From: a virus | DNA: 27,094 bases | Virus record (IMG/VR): IMGVR_UViG_3300025674_000300 | Span: 1 to 27,094 of that record | Reading direction: 5' to 3' (one strand) | Shown here: in pieces, positions 4,170 to 18,506 of the stretch | Layout: each line of letters starts with the position of its first letter | Numbering within the stretch: position 1 is the stretch's first letter | Position numbers and translations under genes: made by a program | The notes under the pieces: generated by a model | The model's database searches: none | Seen by the model: the letters and a program-made list of their open reading frames with translations, nothing else | What the model was told of the DNA's origin: nothing

Positions 4170-5195
4170 TTAGTTTGGCAGAGCCAGAACAAAACCAGCT
4201 TCAGGACGGTAGCACTCAACACCGTAGAGGGTGTCAGCAGTGTACAGAGTTGACAAGTGCTCCTGCTTGTACTGAGTCTGTGAACGTACAGACATCTGCT
4301 CAGCAAGGACGACAGCATCACGGTGGAACAAGAGTCCAGCACGTACTTCAGCAGCACCAGTAGCAGCGCCGTTTTCAGCAAGAGTCTCAATAACTTCACA
4401 GTTAGACGACACGTAAATGTCTACACCGTACAAGTTACCGATAAGGCCGCTTGCAACTGGTTGGCCGCTTACGAAGTCAGAAGACACGTAACGCTGAATA
4501 CCGAGGATCTGGTTACGTACTGAAGGTGGAATTACCAAGCAACGGTTGTCCATAGGAACGTCGTTGTCGTCCATCTTCTGAATCATGTCACGGAAGAAGT
4601 CGTCAGTAAATACGTCAGCAGCAGTTACTGTGTCTTCAGCAAAAGCAACAGTTCCAACAGTATTGTCAGCAACATTGTTAAAGAAACAAGAGCTGTGTAC
4701 GTAGCTGCCGGGAAGACCAGTGTGGAGTACGTTGGTAGAACCTATGGCAGCGTTAGCACCGTCAATACGGAAAGCTGTAGCAACTTGGTGGAGGTCAGTG
4801 TCAACCTTTTTAGCAAGTGCATAACCAGCGTCTTCAGTGTAGAACTGACGGAGGCTGTTAAGTGCCTGTACTTCTACGATGTCTTCGATAAGACGAGAGT
4901 ACTCAAAGTGACGATTTACGTCAATTGTAATTTCGTCTTCAGTGTTTGCAATTACAGTAACCGCAGTGTCAGCGTCTTTAGGGTTTGCATCTGCACGAAC
5001 GGGTACAGGAACGTGAATACGGTCACCCTTCTTGCCTGTCATAGTAATCTTCTTGACAAGCGGTGCCATCTTCAGGTTTTTCTGGTAAGCAGCAATTACT
5101 TCGTCACTCCAGATTTCTGGGATAAACGCTGATGCTTCGGTCTTAGCGGTAAAGGCCGCTGCTGCCGGTGAACTAGTATAAGTTGTAGTAGCCAT
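4170..5195 (-). CDS. Major capsid protein
   Basis: 341 residues. The N-terminus (FIPEIWSDEVIAAYQKNLKM, then PLVKKITMTGKKGDRIHVPV) resembles capsid proteins of podoviruses that are expected to have the HK97 fold. Further support comes from FEYSRLIEDIVEVQALNSL, an ALAKKVDTDLHQVA helix, a central DNRCLVIPP segment, and the ending YGVECYRPEAGFVLALPN. It lies immediately after the scaffold gene, the usual order scaffold then capsid, with ribosome site AGGAGATTAAC before the ATG. The ending and surroundings show no cleaved prohead protease domain, so the scaffold is a separate protein. A terminator-like hairpin follows. The capsid call is strong; the exact family is inference. Confidence 0.9.
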   Translation of the reverse strand: MATTTYTSSPAAAAFTAKTEASAFIPEIWSDEVIAAYQKNLKMAPLVKKITMTGKKGDRIHVPVPVRADANPKDADTAVTVIANTEDEITIDVNRHFEYSRLIEDIVEVQALNSLRQFYTEDAGYALAKKVDTDLHQVATAFRIDGANAAIGSTNVLHTGLPGSYVHSSCFFNNVADNTVGTVAFAEDTVTAADVFTDDFFRDMIQKMDDNDVPMDNRCLVIPPSVRNQILGIQRYVSSDFVSGQPVASGLIGNLYGVDIYVSSNCEVIETLAENGAATGAAEVRAGLLFHRDAVVLAEQMSVRSQTQYKQEHLSTLYTADTLYGVECYRPEAGFVLALPN

Positions 5196-9370: not shown

Positions 9371-10621
9371 TTAGTACCCTGCTACCACGTCAAGTATTTC
9401 ATGGTCTTCAATTTCGTAGCTATAGTCATACGCTACGTTAGCCAACTGATCGATGTACGCCAAAGCGTCTATTAAGTCATCGTGTGTTAATGGATCAGGG
9501 AACTGAAATAGTTGATCAAGGAATCTACTGTTCCATTCGCCTTTGTTTAAAGTAATGTAGCCGTTTTCAAAACGACCTTGGAGTGCCCACATTACCCTGT
9601 CTGTTTTCTTTTTGTTTGCGTGTGTTAGTTCTTCTACTCTAAAAAACATACCGTAACGCTTTTGCATATCCAACAAAGGAGACATTACTGCTTGTTTAGC
9701 AATACCTCTTTCGATACCAACGGATACGGGACGGTAATCTCTAACGGCCTGAAATATCTTAGCTGCTGTTTCGTCAAGTGTCCATCTACCGTATATGATA
9801 TTGTCAACATACCAACCATGCTCATTGACCTTAACCACGGCAATGGCTGTTTCGTCAAGCTTACTATTTTTGGTTCTTTTTTTATTGACTTCTTCAAATC
9901 CTGCCAAGTCAACAGCAATGTAATAGTCTCCTACGTCCGGACCCACTTCACTAACTTTAACCCAATCTTCCTTGAACATCTCTGAGCCACGGGCTTCAAA
10001 CGACGCCATAAATTCCTGACGAAACGCATAAGAAGACATAGAGCGCTTTGCAATATCGATTTCAGACGGATCAAGAAGAGGATTATCGTAAGAAGTAAAG
10101 TGCCATGCTTTGTACGTTTCATCATCACCAAGCTCCGCATACTTATACAACTCGTAGAAATGGTTCCTTCCCATAGGCGTACCAATAAACATTGCACAGC
10201 CTTTTTGGTCAGCCAAGGCAGGTCTCAGGATTTGTTCAAATACATCAGGTTTCATGTCTGCGTATTCGTCCAACACTAAGAACTTAAGACTAACACCTCG
10301 CATTGTCTCTGGTCGGTCAGCACCCTTGAGGCTAATGGTGGCTCCATTGACGAGCTTGATTTGCAAGTTGTTGATGTGGCTGCCAGCAATAACAGGATGC
10401 CCAAGCTCCAGAAGGGTTTGCCACATGATGTCTCGGGCTTGTCCTTGTGTTGGAGCAACGTAAAATACGTGTCCCCTATCGGCCTGAAGAGCATTTACTA
10501 TTAACATCCATGCGGCTAGTCTTGATTTACCCGTTCTTCGTCCTGCCGCTACAATCTTGAAACGAGTGTCGTCTGCCCAGACTTCTTGCTGCCAAGGCAG
10601 TAGTTCAATATTAAGATCCAT
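9371..10621 (-). CDS. terL: Terminase large subunit
   Basis: 416 residues. The ATPase has Walker A GRRTGKS (27-33), Walker B FLVLDE (114-119) and a coupling motif GTPMG (147-151). The RNase H-like nuclease shows D238 (AVDLAG), E304 (VGIERG) and D381/D382 with D385 (THDDLIDAL). All catalytic residues are present. It packages DNA into the procapsid through the portal, using ATP, and cuts concatemers. The portal gene starts one base after its stop. The length is shorter than T7 gp19 (about 586), near other marine podovirus terminases. Start ATG at 10621 overlaps the end of the upstream small gene. Confidence 0.95.
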   Translation of the reverse strand: MDLNIELLPWQQEVWADDTRFKIVAAGRRTGKSRLAAWMLIVNALQADRGHVFYVAPTQGQARDIMWQTLLELGHPVIAGSHINNLQIKLVNGATISLKGADRPETMRGVSLKFLVLDEYADMKPDVFEQILRPALADQKGCAMFIGTPMGRNHFYELYKYAELGDDETYKAWHFTSYDNPLLDPSEIDIAKRSMSSYAFRQEFMASFEARGSEMFKEDWVKVSEVGPDVGDYYIAVDLAGFEEVNKKRTKNSKLDETAIAVVKVNEHGWYVDNIIYGRWTLDETAAKIFQAVRDYRPVSVGIERGIAKQAVMSPLLDMQKRYGMFFRVEELTHANKKKTDRVMWALQGRFENGYITLNKGEWNSRFLDQLFQFPDPLTHDDLIDALAYIDQLANVAYDYSYEIEDHEILDVVAGY

Positions 10622-10973: not shown

Positions 10974-11323
10974 TAGTAAGTCCAAATAACAGGAGTAGTA
11001 CCACGAGTATCAACATGAACAAAGTCATCAGCAACACCAATGCCTGTAAAACCCATGTCAAGTGCTTTGCTGACAATAGCGTGGCGGTGGGCGGCATTTG
11101 TTATTTTTATGTCAGCCGCAATCCCCTGCGCGTGTGTTCCCGGTATGTCTTTTTTTCGTTCTATGGGATGAAGTGTTGGGTGTCGATACCCACTAGTCAC
11201 TTCAAAGGGAAAGCCACACGCTCCGCGCAACTTGTCTAGCTTTTGAAGGAAGTCCATTTCCATGTTGTTAGTACCTGATACTTGACAGTCAAATTCTTCA
11301 CGTTTGAAGTACTTAAGACTCAC
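10973..11323 (-). CDS. M15-family peptidase, probable endolysin
   Basis: 116 residues. SGYRHPTLHP, GTHAQGIAADI and DFVHVDTRG are the M15_3 metallopeptidase pattern, with probable zinc ligands H64, D71 and H103. This family cuts D-Ala or L-Ala-D-Glu peptide bonds in peptidoglycan, so it is the likely lysis enzyme. No signal peptide is visible, so it would need a holin, and none is recognised in this window. The GTG start overlaps the stop of the small-terminase gene (GTGA), with AGGAGG seven bases upstream. Its place between the two terminase genes is unusual compared with T7. Confidence 0.88.
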   Translation of the reverse strand: MSLKYFKREEFDCQVSGTNNMEMDFLQKLDKLRGACGFPFEVTSGYRHPTLHPIERKKDIPGTHAQGIAADIKITNAAHRHAIVSKALDMGFTGIGVADDFVHVDTRGTTPVIWTY

Positions 11324-11718
11324 TTGCTGCCTCCTTCGTAGCCATCTACTACTTCTCCCTCTATAATTTCTGGAGTATTAACTTCAGCAGTACCAACACC
11401 GGTAATATTAATTTGTATAGCGTTTCTACCACCGTCTTTTACTACGTCTTTTTCAAAAGCACCCACTGGTAGTATACGGTCCATCACAAGTTTCCAAGCA
11501 GCAGCCTGATTCTTATGGTCGTTGTCCAAAGCAGCATCAAAAATAGTCTCTAACACCTTACGAGACTTAGGGCTAGCTAACATTCTAGCCTTGTACTCAT
11601 TGATTATCGCTGCGTCACCCTTTGGTCTACCAACTACACCCTTGTTTCCGGGTTTTACAGCGGCTACTTCTGACTTCCGGGGTCTGCCACGACCTCTTTT
11701 TTTAACTTCTTCGGCCAT
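11320..11718 (-). CDS. terS: Putative terminase small subunit
   Basis: 132 residues. The N-terminus has two AT-hook-like basic motifs (KKRGRGRPRK and VVGRPKGD), then a helical part (MLASPKSRKVLETIFDAALD, then AAAWKLVMDRILPVGAFEKD) and a beta/acidic tail (NAIQINITGVGTAEVNTPEI). The first gene of the leftward operon, two genes before the large terminase, is where a small terminase is expected. AT-hooks and helices fit DNA binding at a packaging site. Sequence identity to known small terminases cannot be shown here. The leftward promoter lies just upstream, giving a 5' leader of about 20 bases. Confidence 0.75.
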   Translation of the reverse strand: MAEEVKKRGRGRPRKSEVAAVKPGNKGVVGRPKGDAAIINEYKARMLASPKSRKVLETIFDAALDNDHKNQAAAWKLVMDRILPVGAFEKDVVKDGGRNAIQINITGVGTAEVNTPEIIEGEVVDGYEGGSK

Positions 11719-11746
11719 AACACAAATTGTCCCTAATTACAACAAT

Positions 11747-11775
11747 AGTATAACATAAGTTTACACGAAAGTCAA
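11747..11775 (-). promoter_or_regulatory. Leftward sigma70 promoter, copy 1 (late operon)
   Basis: On the minus strand: TTGACT (11775-11770), 17-base spacer, TATACT (11752-11747). It lies about 30 bases before the small-terminase start. It shares long parts of the spacer and downstream bases with the second copy at 6529-6557. A third, weaker -35 (TTGACT at 11914-11909) with TTGTGT context lies upstream but lacks a good -10. Confidence 0.85.
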
Positions 11776-11823
11776 GCTATTTTTGTTGTAAATACGTAGT
11801 GTGTAGTTTCTTGAGTAAAAACA

Positions 11824-11964
11824 ACAGGTTACACGGCATTGATTATTGCTTATTTTTTCTAATTTTGACCTATTTTGTGCTTAAGGTGCTACTACAATAG
11901 TAAACACAAGTCAACCCCCTCCCCCGCCCCTAAAGTTATCCACAGGTTACACACAGGTTATCCA
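11824..11964 (+). repeat. Short direct repeats CAGGTTAC/TCC
   Basis: ACAGGTTACAC occurs at 11824-11834 and 11942-11952, and a partial copy CAGGTTATCC at 11955-11964. The copies flank the AT-rich and C-tract segments and run into the DnaA boxes, resembling short iterons. Confidence 0.55.
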
Positions 11965-12018
11965 GAGTTGTGGGTAGTCTGTGGATAACTCCAGGGTCTG
12001 TGGACAACTTGTGGATAA
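11936..12018. promoter_or_regulatory. DnaA-box cluster
   Basis: Three perfect TTATCCACA boxes: 11936-11944 (plus), 11980-11988 (minus) and 12010-12018 (minus). Near-matches: TTACACACA at 11947-11955 (plus), TTATCCAGA at 11958-11966 (plus) and TTGTCCACA at 11999-12007 (minus). This gives up to six sites in 83 bases, in mixed orientation. The consensus TTATNCACA is well established for bacterial DnaA. It suggests host DnaA binding for replication start or transcription control. Confidence 0.8.
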
Positions 12019-12140
12019 CTTTTGTGGCAACATTGGCACGGTTTGTGCATGGGTTGACAAATGTGAGGGCTTATGTTGGTGCCTATAGTTGGTACGATTG
12101 TTGCTACGCGAGCATTCTATATCACGCGCACACGCGGTTA

Positions 12141-12668: not shown

Positions 12669-12908
12669 ATGCAACTACGACAGCTAGGCAGTAACAAAAC
12701 AGAGGTAGAGTTCACAGACGGTACTACGGTGTTTTTCAGCTACAGCACACCGGTAGCACTACAGGACGCGCAGGGGAACTATTTCAGGACAGAGGACTTC
12801 TGGAGCGTCACCACGTCTAAGCACATCAATCAGTGGTTAAAGTCCAGAGGTGTGGACTATTGTGACACACTGACACAGGACAGCATCAACGCGAGGGCTA
12901 CAGCATGA
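12669..12908 (+). CDS. Small early phage protein, function unknown
   Basis: 79 residues. MQLRQLGSNKTEVEFTDGTT, then VFFSYSTPVALQDAQGNYFR, then TSKHINQWLKSRG. The layout (beta hairpin with F-SY-TPVA, then a trailing TTSKHINQWL helix) recurs in short proteins of many phages, possibly DUF8033, but the function is not known to me. A strong ribosome site (AGGAGGG) precedes the ATG. The stop overlaps the start of the next gene (ATGA type). Expressed with the small early gene run. Confidence 0.75.
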   Translation: MQLRQLGSNKTEVEFTDGTTVFFSYSTPVALQDAQGNYFRTEDFWSVTTSKHINQWLKSRGVDYCDTLTQDSINARATA

Positions 12909-13123
12909 ACATAGGACGATACACCATCTGGTACAATCACGAGGATCACGTCTGGGACATCTATGACAACCGCAAGGGCTTCAGATACCCAGAGTACACC
13001 ATTAACAACTACTCGCGTCTGCTCTGTGGGCTACGCGATAAGCTAGGGTGGTTAGACACTGACAGGAATCACAGACGATTCTGGTCTGTCATGCGATTCA
13101 TCAGGAGGGCTAAAAATGTTTGA
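12905..13123 (+). CDS. Small early protein, function unknown
   Basis: 72 residues, rich in aromatic and charged residues: MNIGRYTIWYNHEDHVWDIY, then NYSRLLCGLRDKLGWLDTDR, ending RRFWSVMRFIRRAKNV. Predicted beta start then helices with a basic C-terminus. The start overlaps the end of the previous gene by four bases, so it is translationally coupled. I do not recognise the family. The basic amphipathic C-terminal helix might contact membrane or nucleic acid (inference). Confidence 0.65.
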   Translation: MNIGRYTIWYNHEDHVWDIYDNRKGFRYPEYTINNYSRLLCGLRDKLGWLDTDRNHRRFWSVMRFIRRAKNV

Positions 13124-14897: not shown

Positions 14898-15275
14898 ATG
14901 ACAGCAACAACAGTAGAAGGCGTAGTTAACTTCAGCAACCTAACCCAGCATGACGTGTTCAATGGGCAGGACACTGGAGCCTACTCCATGACCATCACAT
15001 TGTCGGAAGACGATGCAGCAGCACTGGCAGCTAGTGGTGTCAAGATTAAGGACTACCAAGGTAACAAACAGCGTAAGTTCAAGTCTCGCTATGAGATCAA
15101 GCGTTTTGATGCCGACGGTAACCCTTATGACGGCGAAGTGCCTTACAACTCCCGTGTACGCTTGAAGTACAAGCTGGGACAGCCTCACCCAGTTCACGGG
15201 GTAGCTACCTACCTTGAGGCAGTAAAAGTACTAGAGGAAGCTGAGTTTGAAGCTGGCGATGCCTCAGACTTCTAA
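14898..15275 (+). CDS. Single-stranded DNA-binding protein (T7 gp2.5-like)
   Basis: 125 residues. The core has an OB-fold-like strand pattern (GVVNFSNLTQHDVFNGQD, YSMTITLSEDDAAALAASGV, YEIKRFDADGNPYDGEVPYN). The C-terminus is acidic and ends in an aromatic residue (EEAEFEAGDASDF), like the gp2.5/SSB tail that contacts polymerase and helicase. Smaller than T7 gp2.5 (232). First gene of the replication cassette, directly followed by primase-helicase with a 17-base overlap. It coats ssDNA at the fork. Family identity rests on position and tail. Confidence 0.8.
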   Translation: MTATTVEGVVNFSNLTQHDVFNGQDTGAYSMTITLSEDDAAALAASGVKIKDYQGNKQRKFKSRYEIKRFDADGNPYDGEVPYNSRVRLKYKLGQPHPVHGVATYLEAVKVLEEAEFEAGDASDF

Positions 15276-16875
15276 GTTCCTAAGACACGAGGGTTGTCCG
15301 GAGTGTGGTTCTTCGGACGCCCTCGCTATTTATGACGACGGGGGTCAACATTGCTTTGGCTCCGGTTGTGACTATCACGTCAATGGTAATTCTAGTATGA
15401 CTACAGAAACACAGCTACCTAAAGCTACTGCCCTCTATATGGGTGGTGTAGTAGCGGCTATCCCCCAAAGGCGCATATCTCAGGACACTTGTGGGCGCTT
15501 TGGGGTCACCATTGAGTACTCAACCACAGGTGAAATACTAAAGCACTACTACCCCTACTACAACGTAGACACGGGGGACTTGAGTGCGGCTAAGGTGCGT
15601 GACGTACAGACAAAGAACTTCTACTCCACTGGTAACCCAGAGGGTGTGGGCTTCTTTGGACAGAAACAATGCACCAACAACAAGTACCTAACGATTACCG
15701 AAGGGGAGCTAGATGCCCTGTCGGTATATGAGATGTTCGGTAAGCAGTACGACGTAGTGTCGCTACGTGCCGGTGCTAACAATGCGGCCAAGGAAATCAA
15801 GGCGCAGTTAGAATGGCTAGAGACCTACGAAAACGTCGTCCTGTGTTTTGACAATGACAAAGCTGGTGAAGCGGCGTTGGACTCAGTCAAGGACTTATTC
15901 AGCCCTAATAAGCTGAAGATCTGTAGACTGCCAATGAAGGACGCCAGTGAGATGCTCATGGCTAACAAGGTCAAAGAGTTTGTACAAGCATGGTGGAACG
16001 CCAAGGTGTACAGACCTGACGGTATTGTAGCCGGTACAGACACTTGGGACAAACTGGTAGAGAAGCGTAACGTGAAGTCCATCCCTTACCCTTGGGAAGG
16101 TCTTAATCACATCACAAGGGGGCATAGACCTTATGAGCTTGTCACAATCACCAGCGGTAGTGGAATGGGGAAGTCCCAGTTCATTCGTGAGATCGAATTT
16201 GATCTATTACAACGATGTGACGGAAATATTGGAGTCCTTGCTCTTGAGGAAGATCTGGCCAGAACGACGCTTGGTATCATGTCGGTGGCAGCAAACAGGC
16301 CGTTACACTTGGAAGAGGACACTCCTGTCGACCAACTGCGACCATATTGGGAAAGCACGTTGGGAACAGGACGTTACTACCTATTCGACCATTGGGGGTC
16401 AACTTCGGCTGACAACCTGCTTGCCCGTGTTCGTTACATGGCAAAAGCCCTTGATTGTCGGTACGTCATACTGGATCATTTGTCCATCGTCGTTAGTAGT
16501 CAAGAGTCGGGAGACGAACGAAAAGCTATCGACGAGATAATGACCAAGCTGAGGACGCTGGTGGCTGAGACAGGTATCTGCCTGTTCCTCGTGTCACACC
16601 TTAGACGCTCCCAAGGGAAGGCACACGAGGACGGTGCTCAGATATCCTTGGGTGAGCTGAGGGGTAGCCAAGCGATTGCACAACTGTCCGACATAGTCAT
16701 TGGTATGGAACGGGATCAGCAACACGAGAATGAGGACATCAGGAACACTACTACGGTACGAGTACTGAAGAATCGTTACACAGGTGAAACTGGGCCAGCT
16801 TGTTGGTTAGCCTATGACCGTACCACCGGCAGACTGGCTGAAGTAGCTAATCCACACATCGGGGACGACTTTTGA
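15259..16875 (+). CDS. Primase-helicase (T7 gp4-like)
   Basis: 538 residues from the ATG at 15259; a TTG four codons earlier is possible. Zinc module: C13, C16, C32, C37 (CPEC and HCFGSGC). TOPRIM: E149 (ITEGELDAL) and DND at 198-200. RecA-like helicase: Walker A SGSGMGKS (299-306), E330/E331 (ALEED), Walker B YVILDH (402-407), and SHLRR with H447. The late region SLGELRGSQAIAQLSDIVIG closely follows T7 gp4. Full-length with all motifs, so it should both unwind DNA and make primers. Overlaps the SSB end and the polymerase start (TTTTGA). Confidence 0.95.
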   Translation: MPQTSKFLRHEGCPECGSSDALAIYDDGGQHCFGSGCDYHVNGNSSMTTETQLPKATALYMGGVVAAIPQRRISQDTCGRFGVTIEYSTTGEILKHYYPYYNVDTGDLSAAKVRDVQTKNFYSTGNPEGVGFFGQKQCTNNKYLTITEGELDALSVYEMFGKQYDVVSLRAGANNAAKEIKAQLEWLETYENVVLCFDNDKAGEAALDSVKDLFSPNKLKICRLPMKDASEMLMANKVKEFVQAWWNAKVYRPDGIVAGTDTWDKLVEKRNVKSIPYPWEGLNHITRGHRPYELVTITSGSGMGKSQFIREIEFDLLQRCDGNIGVLALEEDLARTTLGIMSVAANRPLHLEEDTPVDQLRPYWESTLGTGRYYLFDHWGSTSADNLLARVRYMAKALDCRYVILDHLSIVVSSQESGDERKAIDEIMTKLRTLVAETGICLFLVSHLRRSQGKAHEDGAQISLGELRGSQAIAQLSDIVIGMERDQQHENEDIRNTTTVRVLKNRYTGETGPACWLAYDRTTGRLAEVANPHIGDDF

Positions 16876-18506
16876 CAATCTACCTTGACTTAGAAGCCAA
16901 CGGCCTGACTCCTGACACCATTTGGTGTGTTGTTACCCGGGAAAATGGTGTGTCACAGGTACATACCAACCGTAACACCCTCTGTGAGGCTCTAGAAGGC
17001 TCTGTGAGCGTTTGTGGGCACAATCTAATAGGGTACGACCTCCCTGTGCTAAAACGTCTCTGGGGGCTTTCTGTGGCTCCTGAGAGGGTAGTAGACACAT
17101 TGGTACTTTCTAGGCTGTACGACCCAAGTCGACAGGGTGGGCACTCATTGAGGGCTTGGGGTGAGACACTGGGCTTCCCAAAGGGTGACCATAGTGACTG
17201 GTCGAAGCTGTCCACTGAGATGATTGACTACTGTATGCGGGACGTGGAGGTAACTGAAGCAGTACACAAGCAGTTAGTCAGAGACATGGCAGACTTCTCA
17301 CCGGAGTCCATTGAGTTGGAACACAAGGTGCAGTTTGCAATTCAACAACAGGAACGCAATGGTTGGTTGTTAGACCAAGGTTTAGCCCATGAGTTGTGTG
17401 CAACATTTAAGGAGAGAATGAATGAAATTGAAGAAGAACTACAGGCGAAGTTTCCGCCGATTGTCACTGAAAGGTGGTCTGAGAAAACTGGCAAGCGCCT
17501 CAAAGACAGCGTCGAAGTCTTTAATGTGGGGTCTCGTCAACAGATTGCCAAGAGGCTCTCGGGGCTTGGTGTACGGTTTGATAAAGTCACGGACAAGGGC
17601 AATCCCATTGTCGATGAGGCTGTACTAGATACGATTGATCTACCAGAAGCTAGAGTCATTAGTGAGTACTTGATGCTACAGAAACGATACGCACAGGTTA
17701 ACTCATGGCTAGAGCACGTAAAGGAGGACGGTAGAGTCCACGGTCGTGTCATTAGTAATGGCGCTGTCACTGGACGTATGACACACCAGAGTCCCAACAT
17801 GGCACAAGTACCAGCAAGCCACAGCCCATACGGGCATGAGTGTCGCTCCTGCTGGACTGTACCAGAGGGTAAAAAATTAGTCGGGTTTGACGCTAGTGGC
17901 CTTGAGCTACGTATGCTAGCCCATTACATGAACGACAAGGAGTTTACTGATGTCCTCCTCACTGACGACATTCATACAAGAAATCAAATGGCTGCAGGGC
18001 TTGAAACAAGACCTCAAGCAAAGACTTTCATCTACGCTTTCCTATACGGAGCAGGAGATGCAAAAATTGGAACTATCGTTGGAGGAAGCGCAAGAGACGG
18101 GGCAGACCTTAAGCAACGATTTCTACGAAACACACCTTCTCTTGAAAGTCTACGAGAACGCGTTATTAGAGCATCTGGGCGCGGGTATCTCACAGGACTT
18201 GATGGTAGAAAGCTTCGAGTTCGATCTGAACACGCGGCACTAAACACACTACTACAGGCTGCTGGCGCTATCGTAATGAAGAAAGCATTGGTCATCTTGG
18301 ACGACTACGCACAGCAGTGGAACCTTGACTACAAACTAATAGGGAACATACACGATGAGGTACAATCGGAGGTGGCTACAGACCAAGCAGAGAAGTACGG
18401 TTGGCTTGCAGTCGAATGCCTCAAGGCGGCAGGTGTGGAGTTTAACCTCAGATGCCCCCTTGACGGAGAGTACAAAGTTGGTACAACATGGGCAGAGACA
18501 CACTGA
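16872..18506 (+). CDS. Family-A DNA polymerase with 3'-5' exonuclease
   Basis: 544 residues, TTG start overlapping the primase-helicase stop. Exonuclease residues: D6, E8 (YLDLEANGL), N51/D56 (GHNLIGYDLP), Y120/D124 (YCMRD). Polymerase motif A D340 (VGFDASGLELR), motif B K384 and Y388 (KTFIYAFLYGAG), motif C H494-D495-E496. Y388 is the O-helix Tyr as in T7, a residue linked with fast synthesis. It is 160 residues shorter than T7 gp5; the stretch where T7 carries its thioredoxin-binding insertion is only about 25 residues here (198-222), so that processivity loop seems absent. Confidence 0.95.
   Translation: MTIYLDLEANGLTPDTIWCVVTRENGVSQVHTNRNTLCEALEGSVSVCGHNLIGYDLPVLKRLWGLSVAPERVVDTLVLSRLYDPSRQGGHSLRAWGETLGFPKGDHSDWSKLSTEMIDYCMRDVEVTEAVHKQLVRDMADFSPESIELEHKVQFAIQQQERNGWLLDQGLAHELCATFKERMNEIEEELQAKFPPIVTERWSEKTGKRLKDSVEVFNVGSRQQIAKRLSGLGVRFDKVTDKGNPIVDEAVLDTIDLPEARVISEYLMLQKRYAQVNSWLEHVKEDGRVHGRVISNGAVTGRMTHQSPNMAQVPASHSPYGHECRSCWTVPEGKKLVGFDASGLELRMLAHYMNDKEFTDVLLTDDIHTRNQMAAGLETRPQAKTFIYAFLYGAGDAKIGTIVGGSARDGADLKQRFLRNTPSLESLRERVIRASGRGYLTGLDGRKLRVRSEHAALNTLLQAAGAIVMKKALVILDDYAQQWNLDYKLIGNIHDEVQSEVATDQAEKYGWLAVECLKAAGVEFNLRCPLDGEYKVGTTWAETH

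Follow-up and report, generated by a model that had tools for sequence, protein, structure and literature searches.

The window, the whole 27,094-nucleotide stretch of viral DNA analysed here, contains a real cluster of DnaA boxes set in exact 11-bp steps. Arrays of this kind are conserved at the same place in many relatives, and two near-complete relatives (one with boxes and one without) carry the surrounding region as an exact terminal direct repeat. The leading explanation, to which we assign a probability of roughly 0.4, is that an array for host DnaA sits in the terminal repeat of a linear genome and would open a replication origin at the genome junction. This reading draws on the array itself, its phasing and conservation, the position of the repeat in relatives, the modular swapping of the array and a search for a phage RNA polymerase in which none was found.

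A phased cluster of DnaA boxes between the late and early genes

Three exact TTATCCACA boxes lie in the window at 11936..11944 (plus strand), 11980..11988 (minus) and 12010..12018 (minus), as the first-pass annotation had stated; where it counted three further sites with one mismatch there are two (11958..11966, plus, TTATCCAGA; 11999..12007, minus, TTGTCCACA). Two DnaA-like boxes with two mismatches, at 11947..11955 (plus, TTACACACA) and 11969..11977 (minus, CTACCCACA), keep the same register. All of these sites were located as motif matches, and their starts advance in exact 11-bp steps (11936/47/58/69/80, then 11999/12010), a regularity that had previously been overlooked. The gaps between the tandem boxes are therefore 2 bp, within the spacing of 3 bp or less between boxes that is expected of a basal unwinding system (BUS). 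In 500 first-order resamplings, no 83-bp stretch held three exact boxes or four sites of no more than one mismatch each, and no other 9-mer in the window clusters as strongly as TTATCCACA. The count against shuffled sequence that had been suggested as a check gave a divided answer: the clustering is beyond chance, and it alone is unusual, the number of sites in the whole window being ordinary (8 seen against 6.4 expected).

The array sits between the leftward terS-lysis-terL late operon and the rightward early genes. Both the divergence of gene directions at this point (terS leftward, early genes rightward) and the AT-rich stretch beside the boxes (11,720-11,880, about 65-74% AT) had been described correctly. 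On the leftward side are the large terminase gene (9371..10621, minus), which was used for finding relatives, a small-terminase-like gene with an AT-hook motif (11320..11718, minus), assigned by its position upstream of terL, and a putative sigma70-type promoter for terS and the late operon (TTGACT-17-TATACT; 11747..11775, minus). The AT-hook, KRGRGRPRKS, opens the terS-like protein, and AT-rich repeats lie just past the predicted terminal-repeat boundary. A GC-skew minimum at 11,954, inside the cluster, was rejected as evidence for an origin; it is uninformative because the skew tracks gene direction, also at 22.5-27 kb.

The array is bordered by a conserved G tract (11915..11930; GGGGCGGGGGAGGGGG as read on the minus strand), which adjoins the exact box at 11936, a box with fixed spacing and orientation in relatives. 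Beyond the tract is a conserved core on the minus strand (11849..11895), for which an ungapped consensus of 140 relatives was derived; it reads GTAG and then, after a repeat boundary predicted between 11891 and 11892, TAGCACCTTAAGC-ACAAAATAGGTCAAAATTAG..., with AT-rich direct repeats beyond. Nearly all relatives, with or without boxes and across all array types, share the order CCGGGGGAGGGG, about 46 bp (the distance from the G tract to ACAAAA) and then GTAGCCAC..A..CACAAAATAGG..AAAATTAGG. The window is mixed, in that the boxes are accompanied by one or two degenerate sigma54-like sites. The site at 12034..12049 (plus; TGGCAC-N5-GTGCA, one mismatch) may be a relic or forerunner of the alternative array described below, and a second candidate at 12090..12105 (plus; TGGTAC-N5-TTGCT), which faces the early genes from outside the predicted repeat, has related sites in relatives.

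Conservation and exchange of the array among relatives

Relatives were collected by a TerL scan of viral contigs, from which the 80 best were taken, and by a scan for the conserved core motif, which added more; the intergenic set comprised 143 distinct regions, 132 of them with at least 250 bp readable. In close relatives the corresponding position upstream of terS holds 9-13 boxes. At least four boxes occur there in 43 of the 132 relatives with enough sequence (maximum 13 boxes), a proportion that is not a frequency because some contigs in the set were chosen by their box pattern. The steps between boxes in relatives are 11 bp (148 cases), 12 bp (44), 22 bp (41), 23 bp (18) and 33 bp (11), and of the periods tested 10.5 bp fits best (R = 0.54), which points to helical spacing. 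The least conserved positions of the box are position 5 (0.95 bit) and position 3 (1.04 bit), the others holding 1.4-1.93 bit, and this variation fits the DnaA rule TTWTNCACA. A reversed control pattern gave one match in viral contigs, compared with at least 120 for the box pattern.

The box nearest the G tract and ACAAAATA core is held at a fixed distance and in a fixed orientation: its distance to ACAAAA is 64 bp, give or take 1 bp, in most arrays, and in 44 of 46 it reads TGTGGATAA in the direction of that motif. The boxes thus stand in a fixed geometry to an AT-rich candidate opening element, as was looked for in an origin, and this geometry is, in our judgement, reminiscent of E. coli oriC. 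The spacing of the proximal box could equally be set by the repeat boundary.

Judged by these sequence patterns, host DnaA is very probably the binder of the array. A protein search found no single-subunit RNA polymerase in ten near-complete relatives or in the window fragment, two positive controls being matched, which bears out and extends the earlier remark that no RNA polymerase was in view; a DnaA domain was not found in the relatives. The phage would therefore need a host factor or another protein to start. The suggestion in the first-pass annotation that host DnaA is recruited accordingly gains support from the conserved position, helical register and DnaA-type degeneracy of the boxes, together with the absence of an RNA polymerase or DnaA gene from these searches, whereas the opening of an origin stays a proposal. 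No box cluster was seen in the genome parts examined of the nearest cultured replication-gene relatives (HTVC103P, HTVC115P and CRP-361). Host assignment from GTDB contigs returned only MAG bins of unrelated phyla and was not trusted.

The conservation of the boxes, proposed earlier as a further check, proved to be partial: many relatives keep them in position, and some have no boxes or another array, even within one pair with identical TerL. Many box-free relatives carry two to nine copies of TGGCAC-N5-TTGCA/T, a match to the sigma54 -24/-12 consensus. These sites mostly face the early genes, about a quarter of them facing the other way, and DnaA-box and sigma54-like arrays tend toward mutual exclusion (Fisher P = 4e-6). 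Upstream of the core in six contigs (L037, L038, L040, L041, L005 and L323), tandem sigma54-like sites with a 47-bp unit, often in alternating orientation, replace the boxes, and RpoN binding there is putative. The pair with identical TerL consists of L006 (11 boxes) and L007 (no boxes; three sigma54-like sites); between terL and terS their DNA identity is 90-100%, for the most part 97-100%, dropping to background across the core and array. Mapped on the TerL tree, most inner branches of which are weakly supported, the box label needs eight changes. Since the array was exchanged while the terminase genes are nearly identical, it goes with the early module rather than serving as the recognition site of the terminase itself.

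Other differences between relatives were observed in the same region. One relative without boxes or sigma54-like sites has three Fur-box-like repeats (AATGAGAATCATT) at the array position (L075:1-100). A 72-residue early protein (MNIGRYTIWYNHEDHVWDIYD..., encoded at 12905-13123 in the window) has relatives in 18 of 31 genomes with sigma54-like arrays and in 2 of 26 with box arrays.

A probable direct terminal repeat as the setting

The array in the window lies very probably inside a direct terminal repeat, as judged by comparison with relatives. Two near-complete relatives, both from one sample, have exact terminal direct repeats, of 190/190 bp in G038 (L323; 35,152 bp; box-free and of the sigma54-like class) and of 221/221 bp in G025 (L085; 36,338 bp; with boxes). 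Upstream of the array, each repeat begins at a conserved element, and each ends exactly 13 bp before ACAAAA; their lengths are unequal, and neither is a usual assembly k-mer. The window is a 27-kb fragment without a terminal repeat of its own, and boundaries transferred from the relatives give a predicted repeat at 11892..12065 (the far edge may reach 12069) that contains the G tract, all of the boxes and one sigma54-like site. The far boundary is predicted at element E (CACATTTGTCAACCC in the window; 12051..12069, minus), where the G038 repeat starts (CACACTTGTCAACCC); the L025 and L318 contigs begin 4 nt upstream of it. Element E, which reads TTGACAAGTGTGTG on the early strand, is shared by every array type; it may in addition belong to a promoter or a cut site.

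Contig ends are also informative. The starts of contigs are concentrated in the stretch 100-240 bp upstream of the core. In a count drawn from the at least 120 contigs that match the phased-triple box pattern, 38 entries reach 20 kb or more, and 10 of these (0.75 expected) have the array at most 350 bp from a contig end; G025 is counted twice, both of its ends having been included, and an assembly may also break at a repeat. Other near-complete contigs in this family are self-closing, with their junctions at unrelated positions, as expected from a terminal repeat collapsed in assembly and also from circularly permuted genomes. A lambda-type cos end at the G tract was considered and rejected, as contig ends do not pile up there and complete contigs run through it.

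Cultured parallels were found by BLAST with an array and by direct reading of sequences. DnaA-box arrays lie inside both terminal repeats of phiEap-1 (five boxes per copy), Shigella phage A7 (eight) and Klebsiella phage Kp7 (seven); BF23 has boxes inside its annotated left terminal repeat, and Escherichia phage P483, the host on record of which is E. coli, has eight boxes between a packaging gene and early genes. The internal oriC-like site described in the earlier reading stands as a conserved box array, but its setting is very probably a direct terminal repeat, as indicated by the repeats of relatives, the contig ends and the cultured T7-like phages.

Arrays were also seen in unrelated uncultured contigs, beside terminase or portal genes in L107, L171, L151 and L132 and with recombination or replication genes as neighbours in others. 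In L107 (7294-7324) and 22 sibling contigs of this unrelated family (about 66% GC), tandem exact boxes lie between terS and terL. Microvirus mar31 (L342) has 11-bp tandem DnaA-like repeats (GTGGAAAACCT) about 11 times around 1911-2068, and in a microvirus contig (L155) a phased array near 4313 lies beside the replication initiator gene.

Possible roles at the genome junction and comparison with known systems

According to the leading explanation, a small linear podovirus-like marine phage genome would carry a binding array for host DnaA in its direct terminal repeat. The spacing and base tolerance suggest that DnaA binds the phased boxes as a cooperative oligomer; with the repeat at both virion ends and at every circle or concatemer junction, DnaA would be delivered to ends and junctions alike. 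Positioned beside the G tract, it would help in opening the conserved AT-rich core next to it (ACAAAATAGG..AAAATTAGG..), and the T7-type primase-helicase and family A DNA polymerase, which are encoded with a gp2.5-like SSB at 14898..18506 (plus), may then start there without a phage RNA polymerase. DnaA is plausible as the opener beside such a core. The G tract beside the boxes is hard to melt, however, which counts against origin opening, and the conservation of the core in relatives without boxes means that DnaA is not universally needed.

It is possible, if on balance unlikely, that DnaA in the repeat instead blocks or bridges the genome ends as a structural element, with a part in concatemer processing, repeat duplication, staged DNA entry (as proposed for the T5 injection stop region) or the protection or joining of ends, and is no origin. 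Such an end or junction role is a serious rival because arrays of this kind are also found in the terminal repeats of phages with an RNA polymerase and with other replication systems. Cultured T7-like phages that bear an array can have an RNA polymerase, as phiEap-1 does, and would by analogy with T7 begin replication elsewhere, a hint at a function in the ends rather than at an origin. The boxes in the BF23 repeat, the fixed geometry to the repeat boundary, the arrays that neighbour terminase or portal genes in contigs of unrelated phages and the DnaA boxes reported for the T5 injection stop signal (PMC13250531) argue in the same direction. Against this, the exchange of the array between almost identical terminases implies that the terminase needs no array, and the box-free G038 keeps the same repeat boundary.

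A switch of early transcription, in which DnaA (or sigma54 RNA polymerase in other relatives) at the early end would control the first transcripts, appears improbable. It would account for an array that travels with the early module and for alternative arrays that match the sigma54 consensus and mostly face the early genes, and no sigma70-type promoter toward the early genes was found in the intergenic region; but the quarter of sigma54-like sites with the opposite direction does not fit, up to 13 strictly phased boxes exceed the needs of a promoter, and no DnaA-regulated promoter was identified. We give little credence to the array as a sponge that titrates DnaA from the host oriC: there are up to 13 high-affinity boxes per array, doubled to two copies per genome if the repeat is terminal, but titration requires no fixed spacing or orientation relative to the core. 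That a phage protein reads sites which merely resemble DnaA boxes is very improbable, as their base tolerance fits TTWTNCACA and among the early ORFs no initiator-like gene, or gene with the size of an initiator, was found to follow the array type.

A wider reading, which we regard as rather doubtful, is that several unrelated phage families recruited host DnaA to their terminal repeats, where it would initiate replication or the duplication of the repeat at genome ends and junctions, and that in the window's family this module is interchangeable with RpoN (sigma54)-type sites beside one core. If true, phages of this family can exchange one host protein for another in running the genome junction. 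To our knowledge, it is only partly understood how direct-terminal-repeat phages begin replication near their ends and duplicate these ends, and podovirus replication is not usually taken to involve host DnaA. The phased arrays in the repeats of unrelated phages and beside the P483 packaging gene make the question directly testable, and the swap of DnaA-box and sigma54-like arrays between phages with nearly identical terminases is a natural experiment on which host protein serves.

A literature search for DnaA boxes in the terminal repeats of podophages yielded the T5 case, a software-predicted origin in a Pseudomonas phage and nothing further. With T5 as a precedent, DnaA boxes in a phage terminal repeat are already known; as far as the literature consulted shows, what is new here is how tightly the boxes are phased, how fixed their geometry is and that a sigma54-like array can take their place. 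Iteron/DnaA-box plasmid origins and lambda pR activation are other cases of mobile elements that use host DnaA at the start of replication or transcription, but in the window's family no Rep/O-type initiator was found among early genes tracking the array. The array resembles E. coli-type oriC and the B. subtilis BUS (PMC8287927) in its tandem phased boxes beside a G/C cluster and in the constant orientation of the box closest to the AT-rich element; it differs in the length of the G/C cluster (about 16 bp rather than about 4), in having no adjacent DnaA-trios and in its setting in a viral terminal repeat. A BUS was rejected for the window, DnaA-trios being absent within about 16 bp of a box; the G tract fills the DnaA-trio position, and TAGTAG lies some 40 bp away. 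The T5 injection stop region, in the T5-like terminal repeat, contains DnaA boxes (PMC13250531), as does the predicted repeat of the window. The T5-like system differs in belonging to a siphovirus and in its repeat of almost 10 kb, with few boxes and with pre-early genes inside. Among the Autographiviridae, phiEap-1 differs from the window's family in having a phage RNA polymerase, and the terminase family of these parallels is, in our judgement, a different one. In Enterobacter phage phiEap-1, Shigella phage VB_Ship_A7 and Klebsiella phage Kp7, as predicted for the window, the array adjoins a G/C tract inside the repeat, and in phiEap-1 and A7 it lies beside the packaging gene.
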